The position numbers were made by a program, and so were the translations under genes. From assembly GCA_017645485.1 (NCBI GenBank), contig JAGCOI010000209.1:1-12814 (forward strand): a stretch of DNA of 12,814 nt. Reading direction: 5' to 3'. The notes under the pieces are model-generated. The model was not told the origin of the DNA and did no database searches. It saw nothing but the letters and a program-made list of their open reading frames with translations. Below are positions 6,711 to 12,690 of the stretch, piece by piece. The stretch's first letter is position 1; each line of letters begins with the position of its first letter. Origin of the DNA: Alphaproteobacteria bacterium. GTDB lineage: Bacteria > Pseudomonadota > Alphaproteobacteria > RF32 > CAG-239.

Positions 6711-8168
6711 TTACTTATCCAATTTATCTTTCAGTAATTGATTAACCATTTGAGGATTTGCCGAACCTTTTGAAGCCTTCATCACCTGCCCGACAAACCA
6801 TCCGAACAAATTCGTTTTTCCGCTTTTATAAGCTGCTAAATTATCTGCATTCGAAGCAATCACTTCATCAACGATTTTTTCAATTTGAGAAGAATCGGTA
6901 ACCTGTTTTAAGCCTTTTTCTTCAACAATTTTGATAGGAGACTGACCTGTTTCAAACATCAATGCAAAAACATCTTTTGCAATTTTACCGCTGATGGTGT
7001 TATTTGTGATTAAATCAACCAACTGACCGATCATTTCAGGCTTAATCGGCGACTGTTCAAGTGTTAATTTGTCTGCATTTAAGCGTGCAAAGAAATCACC
7101 CAAAATCCAGTTAGCAACCTTTTTGCCGTCATGACCTTTAGCCGCTTTTTCGAAGAAATCGGCCGTCTCGCGTGATTCGGTTAACAAATCCGCGTCATAA
7201 GCCGTTAAGTTAAAATCTCTCATAAAGCGCTCTTTTTTTGCATCAGGCAATTCAACCATTTGAGCTCTGATATTTTCAATATATTCATCCGTTAAATCAA
7301 GCGGCGGTAAATCCGGCTCCGGAAAATAGCGATAATCATCGGCATATTCTTTTTTGCGCATAAATTTTGTTTGTCCTGTTGCTTGGTCAAATCGACAGGT
7401 TTGCTGTTCAATCGTTCCGCCTTGTTCATATACTTCAACTTGGCGTTTAGCTTCGCTTTCAATGGCCTGCATTGCAAATTTAACGGAGTTCACATTTTTG
7501 ACTTCGGCACGTTCGCGCAAGCCCTGTTCTCCTTTTAAGCGAACGGAAATACTTGCATCACAACGCATGGAGCCTTCATCCATATTACCGTCACAAGTGC
7601 CTAAATAACGCACAATCGAACGTAACTTTTTCAAAAAAGCACCGGCTTCTTCAGGCGATCTGAAATCCGGTTCTGTCACGATTTCCATTAAACCAACCCC
7701 TGCTCTGTTAAAATCCACATAGGTTTTTTTAGGGTTTAAATCATGTATGGATTTGGCCGCATCCTGTTCAATATGAATACGTGTAATACCGATATTTTTT
7801 GAGGTGCCGTCAGATAAATCAATTTTGACATTGCCTTTGCCGACTATCGGGTATTCGTATTGCGTAATTTGGTAGCCGTTCGGTTGGTCGGCGTAAAAAT
7901 AGTTTTTACGTGAAAAAACGGAGTGTTTATTGATTTGAGCATTTAAACCCAATCCGGTCTTAACGGCCTGACGTACACACTCTTTATTTAAAACCGGAAG
8001 CATTCCCGGCATACCGGCATCAATAAACGACACATTCTCATTGGCATCATCGCCGAATTCTGTTGATGCACCCGAAAAGATTTTAGATTTTGAAATAATT
8101 TGGCAGTGAATTTCCAAACCGCAAACAATTTCCCATTCGTTTTTTTCTGTTTTAATGGTGTATGTCAT
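6711..8168 (-). CDS. gatB: Aspartyl/glutamyl-tRNA(Asn/Gln) amidotransferase subunit B
   Basis: tRNA-binding and kinase subunit of GatCAB. It phosphorylates mischarged Glu-tRNA(Gln) (or Asp-tRNA(Asn)) with ATP and receives ammonia from GatA to make Gln-tRNA (or Asn-tRNA). The 485 residues give full length. Visible signatures: WEIVCGLEIHCQ (12-23), the RKNYFYADQPNGYQITQYEY block (family 'RKNYFYPDLPKGYQISQ'), GVGLMEIVTEPDF, and CDGNMDEGSMRCD in the catalytic cradle. The C-terminal YqeY-like tail domain ends in PQMVNQLLKDKLDK. ATG 8168 has AGAGGAA about 7 bases upstream and lies 2 bases after the gatA stop. Together with a complete gatC and gatA, it indicates that the organism relies on indirect tRNA amidation. 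Confidence 0.98.
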   Translation of the reverse strand: MTYTIKTEKNEWEIVCGLEIHCQIISKSKIFSGASTEFGDDANENVSFIDAGMPGMLPVLNKECVRQAVKTGLGLNAQINKHSVFSRKNYFYADQPNGYQITQYEYPIVGKGNVKIDLSDGTSKNIGITRIHIEQDAAKSIHDLNPKKTYVDFNRAGVGLMEIVTEPDFRSPEEAGAFLKKLRSIVRYLGTCDGNMDEGSMRCDASISVRLKGEQGLRERAEVKNVNSVKFAMQAIESEAKRQVEVYEQGGTIEQQTCRFDQATGQTKFMRKKEYADDYRYFPEPDLPPLDLTDEYIENIRAQMVELPDAKKERFMRDFNLTAYDADLLTESRETADFFEKAAKGHDGKKVANWILGDFFARLNADKLTLEQSPIKPEMIGQLVDLITNNTISGKIAKDVFALMFETGQSPIKIVEEKGLKQVTDSSQIEKIVDEVIASNADNLAAYKSGKTNLFGWFVGQVMKASKGSANPQMVNQLLKDKLDK

Positions 8169-8170
8169 GT

Positions 8171-9625
8171 CTATTTCCTCTTAAATGCGGCATCTTTTTC
8201 CAAAGCATAAGCCGTTTTGAAAATTGTTTCTTCATCAAATGCTTTACCAATCAGTTGCATACCGAGCGGCAATCCTTTGGAATCTAACCCGACAGGCAAA
8301 CTGAGCGCCGGCAATCCCGCTAAGTTCACAGAAACCGTGAACACATCATTTAAATACATATTAATCGGATTTTCCTGCATGCTTTCATCACCGATTTTGA
8401 ATGCCGAAACAGGAGATGTCGGTGTTAAAATAACATCACATTTTTCAAAAGCTTTTTCAAAATCTTGTTTAATTAAACGACGCACCTTTTGAGCTTTAAC
8501 ATAATAAGCATCAAAATAACCGGCAGATAAAACATATGTACCAATCATAATACGGCGTTTAACTTCCGTTCCGAAACCTTCGGTGCGCGTATTGATATAT
8601 AAGTCATCTAATTTTTCGCCTTTAACGCGTAAACCGTAACGAATACCATCATAACGTGCTAAATTGGAAGAGGCTTCAGCCGGCGCAATAATGTAATATA
8701 CAGGCAAAGCATACGGTGTATGCGGCAAATTGATATGAACAATTTCGGCACCTCTGCTTTGAAGCATCTGAGCGCTTTTATCCCATAAACCCGAAATTTC
8801 TTTATTTAAGCCGTCAGGTCTGTATTCTGATGGAATACCGATTTTCAAACCTTTAATATCCTGCCCTAAAACCTGTTCAAAATCAGGTACTTTCATATCA
8901 ACCGAAGTTGAATCTTTTGCATCATATCCTGCCATGGCGCGAAGCATAATTGCACAATCACGCACATCTTTTGCCATCGGACCGGCCTGATCCAAAGAAG
9001 AAGCAAATGCCATAATACCCCATCTGGAACAACGGCCGTATGTCGGCTTAATACCCGTAATACCGCAAAAAGCGGCCGGTTGGCGAATGGAACCGCCGGT
9101 ATCCGTACCTGTTGCACCGGCACATAAATGCGCTGCAACGGCTGCTGCCGAACCACCCGAAGAACCGCCTGCAACAAGCGGTTCGCTTGAAGACCACGGA
9201 TTAACCACCGGACCATAATAACTTGTTTCATTACTACCGCCCATGGCAAATTCATCCATATTAAGTTTGCCTAAGAAGCTTGCACCGGCATTAAGTAAAT
9301 GTTGCGTAACCGTTGATTCATATTGCGGCACAAAACCATCTAAAATGTGCGAACAAGCCGTTGAGCGAATACCTTTGGTGCAAAACAAATCCTTAATACC
9401 GAGCGGAATACCCTCTAAAGCGCGATTTGTGCCGTTTTTGTAATGCTCATCGGAAAGACGTGCCTGCTCTAAGGCAACCTCGGGCGTTTCTAAAACATAC
9501 GCGTTATATTCGCGCGTATTTTCCATTTTTTGGATATACGCATTTGTCAGTTCTGTTGCACTGAATTCTTTATTTTTAAGGCTTTTTAATGCCTCAGCGA
9601 TTGTCAGTTCCGTTAAATCAGTCAT
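8171..9625 (-). CDS. gatA: Aspartyl/glutamyl-tRNA(Asn/Gln) amidotransferase subunit A
   Basis: Amidase-signature subunit of GatCAB; it hydrolyses glutamine and channels the ammonia to GatB. I set the start at ATG 9625 (484 residues), although the frame is open to 9682: GGAG lies about 8 bases before 9625, the protein then begins [16 protein letters not shown] as in other GatAs, and the extra 19 residues would overlap gatC and look unlike the family. The Ser-cisSer-Lys triad is intact: Lys78 in LGIKDLF, cis-Ser155 in [11 protein letters not shown] and Ser179 in [27 protein letters not shown] and LDQAGP follow as expected. It lies 4 bases after gatC and 2 before gatB, so the three are surely one operon. 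Confidence 0.98.
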
Positions 9626-9629
9626 CTTT

Positions 9630-9917
9630 TTACTCCACCACTTTCGGTACGGCAAAATAGCCGAATTCCTGCATCGGCGCATTTTTCAAAATTTCCGTTT
9701 TCAAATTGCCGTCCGTCACATCATCTTCTCTTAAAGGTAATGTTGTATCATTAACCGAAACCAAAGGTTCAACATTTTCGGTGTTGACTTCGTTTAATTG
9801 TTCCACCCAATTTAAGATTTTATTAAATTCGTCTTTGGTTTGTTCCACCTTAGAATCTTCCACTTTTAAGCGTGCTAAAAATGCCACTTGCTTAACCGTA
9901 TTATTATCCACTGCCAT
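9630..9917 (-). CDS. gatC: Aspartyl/glutamyl-tRNA(Asn/Gln) amidotransferase subunit C
   Basis: Small linker subunit that wraps between GatA and GatB and stabilises the amidotransferase. The 95 residues are the normal length. It begins with the conserved helix [12 protein letters not shown] (family 'V..iA.LArL.l'), then [20 protein letters not shown] with the 'L..ve.L.e.dt..v.P' pattern, then LREDDVTDG (family 'lReD.v'), and ends with a tail ([12 protein letters not shown]) matching the family's 'f.VPkvie'. ATG 9917 is preceded by AGAGGT at a good distance. It is first in the five-gene minus-strand operon. Its own promoter is not obvious: the upstream bases 9926-10010 give only weak -10/-35 matches on this strand. 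Confidence 0.96.
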
Positions 9918-10008
9918 AACGACCTCTTATGATTTTTACTGCTGGAATGTTTTTAACAACAACTTTATTCAAATGCAAGGAATTTTTTTGTAATGCCCCG
10001 CTTTTTGC

Positions 10009-10037
10009 TTGCAAAAAAAACAAATATACGTTATCAT
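10009..10037 (+). promoter_or_regulatory. Sigma70-like promoter for the structured leader / LRR_5 gene
   Basis: TTGCAA (10009-10014), exactly 17 bases, then TATCAT (10032-10037, 5 of 6 to consensus). Transcription would start near 10044-10046, immediately before the first perfect hairpin (10046-10067). The fit between predicted start and the beginning of the RNA structure supports the call. It would give a 5' leader of about 278 bases before ATG 10323. Confidence 0.55.
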
Positions 10038-10045
10038 AATTGTCA

Positions 10046-10170
10046 GATATGCCAATGGTTGCATATCCAGTGTCTTGGTTGGGCACGGGGTTTTAAAAGA
10101 ACCTTCAAACTGTAGGCAGTGAGGATAACACTGTCAAAAGTGCTGTCTTTTTTTGTTTTAAAGAAAGCAC
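10046..10170 (+). ncRNA. Tandem hairpin array; 5' part of leader or separate small RNA
   Basis: Plus-strand helices in order: 10046-10052/10061-10067 (7 perfect pairs); 10070-10074/10082-10086 (5 pairs, one G-U); 10089-10092/10100-10103 (4 pairs); 10115-10121/10129-10135 (7 pairs, one G-U); 10140-10150/10160-10170 (5+5 pairs around one mismatch). CAGTGT at 10068-10073 is also perfectly complementary to ACACTG at 10128-10133, an alternative enclosing helix that excludes two of the hairpins. A run of seven T at 10148-10154 could end a short RNA of about 105 bases, but no strong hairpin abuts it. I recognise no family: the hallmark motifs of SRP RNA, RNase P RNA and tmRNA are absent. Whether this is an independent RNA or the start of the mRNA leader is open. 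Confidence 0.5.
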
Positions 10171-10177
10171 ACATTAT

Positions 10178-10300
10178 CCCCGATATTTGGTCGGGGAGCC
10201 GATGGCGGATGTCCAAGGATTTTTCCTAAAGGCTATCGGAGTCATTTCCTACAGTATGATTCTTTTACTCTCCGACCGCCTTTCCAAAGCGGTCTTTTTT
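10178..10300 (+). promoter_or_regulatory. Candidate riboswitch/attenuator: three-way junction overlapping an intrinsic terminator
   Basis: P1: GGTCGGGGAG (10189-10198) pairs with CTCTCCGACC (10268-10277), 10 pairs with one G-U. P2: CCGATGGC (10199-10206) pairs with GGCTATCGG's 8 partner bases at 10232-10239 (one G-U), capped by AGGA/TCCT (10216-10219/10224-10227). P3: 10240-10245 pairs with 10256-10261 (6 pairs, one G-U) around a 10-base loop. P1-P2 and P2-P3 abut with no spacer, and 6 bases join P3 to P1, so it forms a compact three-way junction. The 3' strand of P1 shares GACC with the 5' arm of the terminator at 10274-10300. The 5' strand of P1 can instead pair with CCCCGA (10178-10183/10191-10196, 6 perfect pairs). 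Formation of P1 would prevent termination, so ligand-stabilised P1 would switch the gene on. No known riboswitch class recognised. Confidence 0.6.
10274..10300 (+). terminator. Intrinsic terminator just upstream of the LRR_5 gene
   Basis: GACCGC (10274-10279) and GCGGTC (10289-10294) form a perfect 6-pair GC-rich stem with a 9-base loop, followed directly by six T (10295-10300). It ends 22 bases before ATG 10323. There is no space for a promoter between it and the gene, which suggests that expression depends on readthrough (attenuation). Alternatively it ends a stand-alone small RNA. Confidence 0.85.
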
Positions 10301-10322
10301 AATGATTTTTGGGAGAAGAGAG

Positions 10323-10919
10323 ATGAAACAGAAAAGTTTTATTTTATTTATGGCATTAATGGCTTTTTCTTTTGAAACACAGGCTGAAACACAAACATTT
10401 CAGTGTGGTGATAATTGCACGGCAACCCTTGATGATAATGGTGTCATGCGTGTTTCGGGAACGGGACAAATGTGGGGATATGATAACAATGAAAGATGGC
10501 ATACGCCTTGGTATTCTCAAAACCCCAAAATCAAACACCTCATTATTGAAGATGGCATTACAAATGTGGGAAAAAATGCTTTTTTTCTGGCTTATAAAAT
10601 AGAAAAAATTGAATTGGCACAAACTGTGCAAACAGTTGATATAGGTGCCTTTGACGAGGTTGATTCGGTTAAAAGTATGACCATCTATGATTCAACGGTT
10701 TTCAAAGATCAAGACGATTTTATGGCGTATGGAAAATATGAAAATTTTAAGGTAAATTGCTACGGCAATTTGGAAACGTGCAAACAAAATTTAACATCCA
10801 AATCCCCAAAAATAAAGGCTATACCTCAATTTAATTACAAAGGCAAACGCATCTATACCGTTGAAGAAGCCAATATGGTAACCGGCAAAAAAAACAAAGT
10901 GATGATAAGATATAAATAA
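10323..10919 (+). CDS. Secreted BspA-like (LRR_5) leucine-rich repeat protein
   Basis: Small exported protein, 198 residues. I chose ATG 10323 rather than 10302: GGGAG at 10311-10315 gives a good ribosome binding site, and the protein then opens with a signal peptide, MKQKSFILFMALMAFSFETQA, likely cut after T-Q-A (residue 21). The mature part begins with the block seen before BspA-like repeats: CGDNCTATLDDNGVMRVSGTG, then PWYSQNPKIKHLIIEDGITN (63-82, one residue after W-H-T). Two LRR_5-type units follow around NVGKNAFFLAYKIEKIELAQ and TVQTVDIGAFDEVDSVKSMT. Four cysteines (28, 32, 146, 153) could make two disulfides. The basic C-terminal tail KGKRIYTVEEANMVTGKKNK may be a separate module. Role unknown; such proteins often serve in adhesion or surface contact. 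The structured leader and terminator upstream probably control it. Its stop is 7 bases from the sppA stop on the other strand. Confidence 0.75.
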   Translation: MKQKSFILFMALMAFSFETQAETQTFQCGDNCTATLDDNGVMRVSGTGQMWGYDNNERWHTPWYSQNPKIKHLIIEDGITNVGKNAFFLAYKIEKIELAQTVQTVDIGAFDEVDSVKSMTIYDSTVFKDQDDFMAYGKYENFKVNCYGNLETCKQNLTSKSPKIKAIPQFNYKGKRIYTVEEANMVTGKKNKVMIRYK

Positions 10920-10926
10920 AAGCGGT

Positions 10927-12690
10927 TTACATCTTTATCATCATCGGCGGTAAAATTGCATCATGTTTAAGGCGATATAAAACCTTAAATTCTTCCATAT
11001 CCGATAAAACTTTCATCATCGGCAGATTGCCGCCGTTTTCAATAAACTTTGTAAGCTTTTCCTGGAAGGTTTCACGGCGCGGATAATATTGCAAAACAAA
11101 CTTATCTTCCGCATGAATTCCGGCCAATTCTTTGGCTTTTGCAATGGCGTGTTGCAAACCGCCGAGTTCATCCACCAAATGATTTTGCACGGCATCAATT
11201 CCAAGCCAAATACGTCCGCGAGCCAATCTGTCCATCTCACTGATGTCGATATGACGCACTTCGGAAACTTTTGTTGTAAAATCTTGATACACTTCATCCA
11301 AAGATTTTTCAAAAACCTGCTTTTCCGTTTCGGAAAATTTATGATTCATGCTTAAAATACCGGCATTTTGACCATATTTAACCTCACCGAAATGAATACC
11401 GAGTTTATCTGTTAAACCGCTTAAAACAAATTTTCCGCCAAACACACCGATAGAGCCTGTAATTGTTGAAGAATCTGCCATAATATAATCACCTGCCAGC
11501 GAAATAAAATAGCCTCCGGATGCCGCATAGGTGCTCATAGATACAACAATTTTAATATTCTTTTGTTTTTTTAGATTAACTAAAGCGGCCCTGATTTCAT
11601 CGGAGGCGGCATAACTTCCGCCGGGGCTGTTGATACGCAAGACAAGCGCCTTTAAGTTTTCAATATCTTTTAATTCTTCTATTTGCTTTAAAACACTTTC
11701 GGAACCGATAACCGCATCACTGACCGGATTGTTGGAACTTTCACCGTCTTCTATCACACCTTCCAACACCAAGAAAGCCACCATAGGCAATTTCTTTTCC
11801 GTATTTTCGCCCATATGCGCCATATAATCCGTCATTGCATAGTTTTTGGCATGATATTTTTGATATAAACTCTCGTTCATTTCAAAACGATAACCGATAT
11901 GGTCAATCAGCTTCATGTTTAATGCATCTCTTGCACAAACAGGCGCCATATCAACGGCACGCAACACATCACTTTCACTCAACTTTCGGTTAGAGGAAAT
12001 GATTGTGGTATATTGTTTATTTAAACCACCGGCTAATTTTTCGATTTCTTCTTTATATGTCGGTGTAAAATCAGAATTTAAAAGCGATTCAACAGCCGTT
12101 TTATATTCATAACGTGCATAAAATTCCGGCTCAACACCTATTTTTTCCAAAGTATTTTTGAAAAACGGCACTTCGACGGCAACACCCGTTATACCGACAT
12201 CCGAAACCGGTTGCATCCAAATTTCATCAAAAAATGAAGCTAAATAATATTCTTTTGTGCCTTGCCCGAATGAACCGAGCCCCGTCGAATATAAATAAGC
12301 TTTTTTGCCTTTAGATTGAAAATATCTTAAAGCGGATGCCACATCTTCGATTTGTGCCGTACTTAAACCCGTTGTATTTAATGTGGCGGATATTGCTTTA
12401 ATTCTGTCATCCGTACCGGCAACATTAATTGCGCGAATTAAATCAAACACACTGTATGCGGATTGTTTTGTAAATTCCGCAAACAAATCATCCTGACGCA
12501 TTTCGGCATATGCTAAATTAAAGTCAATATTTAATATGCTGTTATCCGGAATACGACCGAGCGTTGATTTCGGGTTCATCAAAGAAAGAACGCCTAAAAG
12601 CACCAGAATAAAGATAATTCCGAAACCGGCAAACGTATAAACAATCGTTTTTCCGATAAGTTTAAAAGCTTTCTTTTTTTTCTCGTGCAT
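10927..12690 (-). CDS. sppA: Signal peptide peptidase SppA, 67K type (protease IV)
   Basis: Membrane-anchored serine peptidase that degrades cleaved signal peptides on the periplasmic side of the inner membrane. At 587 residues it is the long, tandem-domain form (E. coli about 618). A basic N-terminus (MHEKKKKAFK) precedes one membrane anchor (about 13-37). The N-terminal domain supplies the general base Lys197 in YEYKTAVES (E. coli K209 region 'YKSAVEP'). The C-terminal domain supplies the nucleophile Ser391 in STYAASGGYFISL, preceded by LVLRINSPGGSYAASDEI (349-366) and followed by ITGSIGVFGGK (410-420), all conserved. Both catalytic residues are present, so it should be active. ATG 12690 is preceded by GAGGT. 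It has its own promoter and looks monocistronic; the convergent LRR_5 gene ends 7 bases from its stop. Confidence 0.97.
   Translation of the reverse strand: MHEKKKKAFKLIGKTIVYTFAGFGIIFILVLLGVLSLMNPKSTLGRIPDNSILNIDFNLAYAEMRQDDLFAEFTKQSAYSVFDLIRAINVAGTDDRIKAISATLNTTGLSTAQIEDVASALRYFQSKGKKAYLYSTGLGSFGQGTKEYYLASFFDEIWMQPVSDVGITGVAVEVPFFKNTLEKIGVEPEFYARYEYKTAVESLLNSDFTPTYKEEIEKLAGGLNKQYTTIISSNRKLSESDVLRAVDMAPVCARDALNMKLIDHIGYRFEMNESLYQKYHAKNYAMTDYMAHMGENTEKKLPMVAFLVLEGVIEDGESSNNPVSDAVIGSESVLKQIEELKDIENLKALVLRINSPGGSYAASDEIRAALVNLKKQKNIKIVVSMSTYAASGGYFISLAGDYIMADSSTITGSIGVFGGKFVLSGLTDKLGIHFGEVKYGQNAGILSMNHKFSETEKQVFEKSLDEVYQDFTTKVSEVRHIDISEMDRLARGRIWLGIDAVQNHLVDELGGLQHAIAKAKELAGIHAEDKFVLQYYPRRETFQEKLTKFIENGGNLPMMKVLSDMEEFKVLYRLKHDAILPPMMIKM

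Follow-up and report, generated by a model that had tools for sequence, protein, structure and literature searches.

The window, that is, the whole stretch of 12,814 nucleotides analysed here, carries on its forward strand an open reading frame for a secreted LRR_5 (BspA-like) protein, which matches Pfam family PF13306 above the cut-off (E 1.9e-7). The Pfam scan began at an in-frame ATG at 10302; the start of the gene is placed at 10323 because of the ribosome binding site GGGAGAAG. The gene and its leader stand alone between gat-like and sppA-like neighbours on the opposite strand (6711-9917 and 10927-12690), whose ORFs resemble gatB, gatA, gatC and an sppA-like signal peptide peptidase.

A first-pass annotation had described a possible undescribed riboswitch or attenuator at 10178..10322, and its structural elements are all found in the sequence. 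P1 (10189-10198/10268-10277) has 10 pairs, one of them G-U; P2 (10199-10206/10232-10239) has 8 pairs, also with one G-U; P3 (10240-10245/10256-10261) has 6 pairs and abuts P2 without spacer. The terminator GACCGC/GCGGTC shares GACC (10274-10277) with the 3′ strand of P1, the competing hairpin CCCCGA/TCGGGG (10178-10183/10191-10196) overlaps the 5′ strand of P1, and the ATG at 10323 lies 22 nt past the U run. The proposed interval contains the junction and the terminator but leaves out the 5′ part from 10089. Because the P3 loop and the P3-P1 linker pair with 5′ strands, the leader RNA would extend from about 10089 (or 10046) to 10300, as a pseudoknotted RNA of about 210 nt. Its parts, and the gene that it precedes, are as follows.

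10046..10067, + strand: 5′ hairpin GATATGC/GCATATC, from the sequence; outermost candidate part, with a similar hairpin seen by eye in another copy (L005)
10070..10086, + strand: 5′ hairpin GTGTC/GGCAC, from the sequence; analogous hairpins in other copies by eye
10089..10103, + strand: hairpin HA, GGTT/AACC, with X1 in its loop; a 4-5-pair stem surrounds X1 in 100 of 103 copies (raw count, without shuffled control)
10094..10099, + strand: X1 strand TAAAAG, partner of 10262-10267 in pseudoknot 1; from an inverted repeat and a self versus non-self test
10109..10116, + strand: X2 strand ACTGTAGG, forming pseudoknot 2 with the P3 loop 10248-10255; from an inverted repeat and self versus non-self tests
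10117..10133, + strand: hairpin H1, CAGTG AGGATAA CACTG, from the sequence; counterpart in other copies by eye
10140..10170, + strand: hairpin H0, GTGCT..AGCAC, from the sequence; variable hairpins at the equivalent site elsewhere, by eye
10178..10196, + strand: anti-P1 hairpin P0, CCCCGA (10178-10183) with TCGGGG (10191-10196); from the family count and an RNAalifold consensus
10189..10198, + strand: 5′ strand of P1, pairing with 10268-10277; compensatory changes
10199..10239, + strand: P2 (10199-10206/10232-10239) with the internal loop ATGTYCA..CTAAAG; compensatory changes
10217..10219 with 10224..10226, + strand: P2a, inside P2; compensatory changes
10240..10261, + strand: P3 hairpin (10240-10245/10256-10261), whose loop 10248-10255 pairs with X2; compensatory changes
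10262..10267, + strand: X1′ strand CTTTTA; joint pseudoknot test
10268..10277, + strand: 3′ strand of P1, its final GACC common to the terminator; covariation and terminator overlap
10274..10300, + strand: intrinsic terminator GACCGC/GCGGTC with a loop of 9 and six T (arms 10274-10279/10289-10294, then TTTTTT at 10295-10300); from the sequence and the family count
10311..10318, + strand: ribosome binding site GGGAGAAG, from the sequence
10323..10919, + strand: gene of the secreted LRR_5 (BspA-like) protein, putatively controlled by the leader; ORF and Pfam match

Folding calculations gave a z-score of -3.94 for 10188-10277, with none of 200 shuffles as good, and of -2.49 for 10150-10330, with 2 of 200 shuffles as good. 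The minimum-energy fold of 10174-10277 is the P1 junction (-35.1 kcal/mol) and that of 10174-10300 is P0 together with the terminator (-42.3). The leader is predicted by these calculations to be bistable, with the P1 junction formed before the terminator is synthesized and P0 plus the terminator formed afterwards. An automated terminator scan of 9800-11000 reported none; its loop limit is 8, and the loop of the window terminator is 9.

Occurrence of the RNA

By plain DNA search, the window's own 1.16-Mb draft genome yielded five strong copies; among 57 genomes (this one and its relatives), 26 gave matches. A covariance model built from 25 copies (R1), used at E ≤ 1e-3, matched 43 of the 49 sampled genomes of the window's family. 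The window's genome has 8 copies and two congeners have 61 and 71; the 1.6-Mb genome G026 has at least 79, a lower bound since it is the number of candidates scored. Across the class, R1 at E ≤ 1e-4 matched 43 of 385 sampled genomes and 35 of 277 genera. A second model built from 105 copies (R2) was used across the phylum, where 37 of 398 sampled genomes were positive; 16 of these 37 lie outside the class and have one copy each, or two in one case. In named genomes, a degenerate pattern pointed, among the matches listed, to Rhizobium, Shinella, Agrobacterium, Methylobacterium, Paracoccus, Nitratireductor, Acidocella, Sphingorhabdus and others. R2 at E ≤ 1e-3 confirmed 83 of 87 loci from the named genomes and the phylum scan. 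The other four (L217, L230, L250, L273) gave no R2 match at this threshold, and three of them are labelled as coming from outside the phylum (Acidimicrobiaceae, Intestinimonas, Saprospiraceae). One locus labelled Acidobacteriaceae, whose contig binning is uncertain (L229), matches R2.

The RNA also occurs on plasmids: blastn with a Ti-plasmid copy matched 173 of 72,556 plasmid records, of which 143 are typed conjugative. Spread by phages was considered as well. One leader had no match among 50,697 phage records and another had 2, so that phages appear not to be the main carriers; one pattern search led to one viral contig.

Many copies, carriage on plasmids and a position before accessory genes would also be expected of a mobile or recombination element acting as DNA, of the attC or MITE kind. 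Such an element would not account for the G-U pairs, the overlap with a terminator and the narrow same-strand distance to a start codon, and this explanation is scarcely credible.

The junction and its two pseudoknots

The pairs of P1, P2 and P3 that had been proposed from the window are kept in related copies with compensatory changes. Of the 27 junction pairs, 13 show changes on both sides in the first 25 copies; in 105 copies the number is 25 (reached by 0 of 500 shuffles), and in another 94 distinct rows it is 20. The last two alignments were fitted to the model, and the sets may overlap under other labels. All 8 pairs of P2 change on both sides in each of the three sets; for P1 the counts are 1, 9 and 5 out of 10, and for P3 they are 1, 5 and 5 out of 6. 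In the further 94 rows, 97.5% of the cells are paired and covariation is 0.669 versus 0.178 after shuffling; the count of both-side pairs is reached by 19 of 500 shuffles, the other four measures by none of 500. Three unpaired segments (ATGTYCA and CTAAAG in P2, AAC ahead of the 3′ strand of P1) show strong conservation across the 25 copies and across most of the wider set; the internal loop ATGTYCA is replaced in L085, L087, L102-L106 and L111. The alignments indicate a P1-P2-P3 fold that covaries and is conserved in 5′ leaders.

Two further pairings connect the junction to the 5′ part of the RNA. About 130 nt upstream of the P3 loop lies a strand complementary to it (X2); immediately 5′ of X2, a small hairpin carries in its loop the complement of the P3-P1 linker (X1). 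The pairing sequences vary between copies and match inside each copy; in the window they were found as inverted repeats (10094-10099/10262-10267 and 10109-10116/10248-10255). In a first test, restricted to a single helix and to the 165 copies left after identical ones had been removed, 61% of the self pairings exceeded the 95th percentile of the non-self pairings. The value was 33% for the 45 copies outside the window's family, a shortfall probably due to bad placement of the fixed 38-nt P3 window. This test was replaced by a joint test of X1 and X2, which left out 2 of the 105 copies having less than 140 nt upstream. Both pairings occurred in order in 102 of 103 copies; 97 copies exceeded the 95th percentile of 1545 non-self pairings, 90 the 99th percentile and 73 the non-self maximum. 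Non-self pairings gave some joint match in 91.7% of trials; therefore, it is the score and not the presence of a match that discriminates. The 4-5-pair stem flanking X1 is built from many different sequences.

The joint test was extended to 57 plasmid, named-genome and phylum-scan copies, none of which had to be left out. Of these, 49 were matched and 42 exceeded the 95th percentile of 855 non-self pairings; the other eight, the loop cut from the alignment being three bases, were scored as misses. All 39 Bartonella-type copies (see below) were matched, 23 exceeding the 95th percentile and 5 the 99th. These copies separate less because they resemble each other. Comparison of the copies thus shows a junction joined through the P3 loop and the P3-P1 linker to two 5′ pseudoknot strands and flanked by P0 and a terminator, both overlapping P1.

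Genes behind the RNA and the output stage

Among 124 entries of the window's family (at least two copies, that of the window included, appear twice), P0 has at least 6 pairs in 119 and a terminator overlaps the 3′ strand of P1 in 111, by at least 3 bases in 104 (raw counts, without shuffled control). Outside the family, P1-overlapping terminators with a T run were found at 20 of 86 class or phylum loci, at none of 18 plasmid loci and in none of 39 Bartonella-type hits, giving 20 of 143 in total. The plasmid copies (L325-L341) have, judged by eye, a conserved hairpin of the type GCGGGGGCGYACCGC 3′ of P1, which replaces the T-run terminator. Rarity of T-run terminators outside the family and the presence of this hairpin instead indicate that the output stage has diverged. 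Many Bartonella-type copies (L343-L361) have, also by eye, a hairpin TGCGAGGGCGCTCGCA 3′ of P1 without a T-run terminator.

Downstream genes were defined as the longest ORF starting 5-140 nt past the end of the model. By this rule an ORF follows 111 of 120 family copies; the 9 copies without one, out of 165, are all in this family. For 88 of these 111 ORFs the start codon is 35-59 nt from where the model ends. By a simple rule, 62 of the 111 downstream proteins look secreted, versus 20 of 70 nearest upstream genes. Pfam scans took ORFs of at least 60 aa (107 of 111 in the family, 43 of 45 at class level). The 107 family proteins gave Bundlin 18 times, PilS 15, LRR_5 13, glycosyltransferase 2 8, HTH_3 7 and OMP_b-brl 5, in a sample steered by 20 copies from G026. 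In that genome every sampled copy (L132-L151) is followed by a gene with a pilin motif, GRSMIEMLGVLAIIGVLS; the motif GRSMIEMLG was found behind 20 of 20. With these pilin targets and at least 79 copies, G026 may therefore hold dozens of leader-controlled pilin paralogues.

In the window's genome, LRR_5 genes stand behind 4 of the 8 copies; the genes behind the other four are, by resemblance, one YpsA/SLOG-like, two glycosyltransferase-like and one lipoprotein-like. LRR_5 domain matches preceded by the RNA amount, among those listed, to 22 of 70 in G001, 12 of 71 in G002 and 3 of 9 in G000 (70 of 82, 71 of 88 and 9 of 12 domain matches, respectively, having been taken in). Conversely, RNAs with an LRR_5 match within 900 nt amount, among those listed, to 21 of 33 in G001, 12 of 35 in G002 and 3 of 8 in G000, with 33 of 61 RNAs taken in for G001 and 35 of 71 for G002. 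The first-pass annotation had regarded a surface protein as an unusual target. It is in fact an ordinary one, because secreted or surface proteins commonly follow the RNA in the window's family.

LRR_5 and pilin genes form large paralogous families with which many leaders travel along. It may then be imagined that the leader is a fixed, unregulated 5′ untranslated region, spread with duplicating genes, the terminator of which just lowers expression. The junction and the pseudoknots are, however, kept by compensatory change before unrelated genes in many bacterial families, and P0 and the terminator persist in 119 and 111, respectively, of the 124 family entries. These observations make a passive leader very improbable.

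Away from the family the targets change. The 43 class-level proteins fall into 23 Pfam families, few of them recurring (HTH_3, 4 times). A set of 54 proteins from plasmid, named-genome, phylum-scan and Bartonella-type loci, hand-picked from 80 ORFs after repeats and doubtful frames had been dropped, gave HTH_3 19 times, TraM 9, RovC_DNA-bd 9, AntA 3, P22_AR_N 2 and Rha 2. RovC_DNA-bd (PF10074) is the former DUF2285, which includes QseM. On 8 of 18 plasmids the RNA immediately precedes either traM or a "transcriptional regulator" gene next to traR. It directly precedes an HTH gene on 3 of the 18, a DUF2285 gene on one and, on another one, a hypothetical gene weakly like TraM. On pTiS4, p1METDI and pOC167 no annotated same-strand gene was found close behind the RNA in a plasmid gene table that is incomplete, and 2 of the 18 records carry no annotation. 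Two Ti plasmids have a ProQ/FinO family gene directly 5′ of the RNA and traM (L330, 2072-2404; L331, 2073-2318).

Two other groups of genes were noticed behind the RNA. In G042 and G198, all five copies fetched (L091, L098-L101) are followed by members of one family of 97-104-aa proteins. The L091 protein, the only member scanned singly, had no Pfam match, and the family could be an unrecognised antiactivator. Phage-type regulators with Rha, AntA or P22 antirepressor domains follow the RNA at L083, L092, L203-L209, L344 and L354; their occurrence in several genomes suggests use of the RNA by prophages.

Related RNAs, mechanism and candidate signals

None of the 4227 families of Rfam 15 matched the window at the gathering cut-off, and at E up to 10 only chance-level hits, far below the cut-offs, were obtained around the element. 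On 14 further loci, Rfam returned Atu_Ti1, rRNA and tRNA only, none of them at the element. Atu_Ti1 (RF02506) is, like some copies, a Ti-plasmid RNA, but it lies elsewhere on those plasmids. Another Ti-plasmid RNA, the sRNA QfsR (Diel 2019, as cited in PMC7912708), is linked to transfer in PMC7912708; it might be identical to the traM leader. The term "undescribed" used in the first-pass annotation agrees with Rfam and is probably too strong with regard to Bartonella, where the Brt RNAs most likely form a branch of the same RNA (PMC5387305, from the accessible part of that article).

As far as the accessible part of that article goes, Brt1-9 of B. henselae are RNAs of 194-203 nt, each upstream of an XRE HTH gene, one of these being a pseudogene. 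In RNA-seq, brt is abundant and trp poorly transcribed, and a riboswitch was proposed; the RNAs were termed genus-specific to Bartonella on BLAST evidence. Table 1 of that article gives copy numbers of 2 for quintana, 7-9 for henselae and 8 for vinsonii; for B. tribocorum the number given is 33-34 (PMC5387305). According to the sections seen of a later review, deletion of the brt1 3′ stem-loop raises trp1, expression of gfp placed behind brt1 goes up when heme declines, and temperature and pH have no effect on the brt1 reporter (PMC8070961).

R2, which contains no sequence labelled genus g294, matched 25 of 40 g294 genomes at a best E ≤ 1.2e-5 and 26 of 40 at E ≤ 1, with 39 hits of 36.7-56.6 bits in 20 loci. 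Of the 20 loci retrieved, 17 include at least one copy with an XRE-type gene behind it; antirepressor-like genes are found at two, and the remaining locus is masked. The Bep C-terminal domain was found in 6 of 8 g294 genomes. Copy numbers are 2 (1.6-Mb genome), 8 (1.9-Mb) and 9 (1.8-Mb); among four genomes of 2.6-2.7 Mb, three have no copies and one has 14, a poorer fit to B. tribocorum. Because of the Bep domain, the XRE genes and some of the copy numbers, genus g294 is nearly certainly Bartonella. Since R2, built without g294, finds the RNA there before XRE genes, the Brt RNAs are most likely one branch of the class-wide RNA, linked to it by context and model match.

Like the Brt RNAs, the window copy is a structured RNA of about 200 nt just upstream of a start codon (10089-10300, then 22 nt). 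They differ in their targets, XRE HTH for Brt and LRR_5 in the window, HTH_3 proteins being found behind 7 of 107 family copies, 4 of 43 class-level copies and 19 of 54 in the plasmid, named-genome, phylum and Bartonella-type set. They also differ in the T-run terminator, which overlaps P1 in the window and in 0 of 39 Bartonella-type hits. Finally, Brt was published as restricted to Bartonella, whereas the window RNA spans family, class, phylum scan and plasmids. A literature search conducted largely outside subscription journals found no work that connects Brt with the traM leaders and with leaders in other alphaproteobacteria; Bartonella seems to be the only genus for which related RNAs have been described.

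The attenuation logic put forward in the first-pass annotation is backed by covariation in two sets of copies, by the start-codon spacing and by the P1-overlapping terminators of 111 of 124 family entries. Our main reading, to which we give a probability of roughly 0.78, is that 10089-10300 is a copy of a class-wide leader of about 210 nt acting in cis as a transcription attenuator, ON when P1 is formed, with Brt most likely a branch. A signal would stabilize the pseudoknotted junction, so that P1 would hold the GACC of the terminator and RNA polymerase would read through into the LRR_5 gene. Without such stabilization, P0 would capture the 5′ strand of P1, the terminator would form and transcription would end 22 nt before the gene.

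A mechanism in cis is likely, and the work on Brt1 also bears on another one. In the accessible part of the report, antisense knock-down of Brt1 raised badA, and it was proposed that Brt1 acts on badA (PMC5387305); the terminated leader would then be a trans-acting sRNA and read-through a side effect. Start codons are found at a short and narrow distance (88 of 111 within 35-59 nt) before varied targets, which a pure sRNA would not need. This argues against an sRNA-only function, which we hold to be improbable; a role in trans may coexist with attenuation.

The switch of the cis-acting attenuator might alternatively be driven by a protein or by another RNA, for instance by a ProQ/FinO or Hfq-type chaperone acting on the junction. 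A protein partner is possible, given that on two Ti plasmids a ProQ/FinO gene immediately precedes the traM leader and that TraM protein is lower in an Agrobacterium hfq mutant (PMC4201532). In the other annotated plasmid stretches examined, however, no ProQ/FinO gene lies near the element, and the conserved unpaired ATGTYCA, CTAAAG and AAC are reminiscent of ligand pockets. A partner of that kind would be rather unlikely as the main driver, while deserving more weight than the sRNA.

Attenuation by a ligand would bring the window RNA close to the attenuation riboswitches. It shares with them a conserved junction, the mutual exclusion of P1 and terminator and an anti-P1 hairpin, but differs in having no Rfam match and in reaching at least 79 copies in one 1.6-Mb genome. 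Among known classes, c-di-GMP riboswitches precede surface and adhesion genes and are present many times per genome. The window RNA resembles them in this respect and, unlike them, has no Rfam match. Of 14 genomes tested in the window's family, 13 contain GGDEF domains. The remaining one (G013) gave no GGDEF match and has six strong matches to the RNA model (E < 1e-18) plus nine weaker ones, which weakens c-di-GMP as a universal signal. For heme, a further candidate in view of the brt1 reporter, a search for ferrochelatase was negative in all 13 genomes examined (window family and Bartonella type), the control search being positive in 8 of 14 well-known genomes; this absence fits a lack of heme synthesis in those 13 genomes.

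A broader and tentative proposal, which we would put at somewhat under even odds, is that all these leaders form one ancient alphaproteobacterial riboswitch class with a single ligand. It would control, in one lineage or another, the gates of horizontal transfer (TraM, DUF2285/QseM-type antiactivators, phage antirepressors and XRE regulators) and the choice among dozens of paralogous surface proteins, one small genome having at least 79 copies. A large double-pseudoknotted RNA without match in Rfam 15 is widespread in a well-studied class, including on Ti and symbiosis plasmids. It offers a handle on what the Bartonella Brt RNAs sense, on a further control of TraM and related conjugation antiactivators and on the regulation of dozens of paralogous LRR and pilin genes in gut alphaproteobacteria. 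The question of the ligand can now be approached in convenient laboratory bacteria.

At some loci a second match to the RNA lies close by (L088, L160, L118, L122, L345, L347); in L088 the two matches are within about 120 nt.
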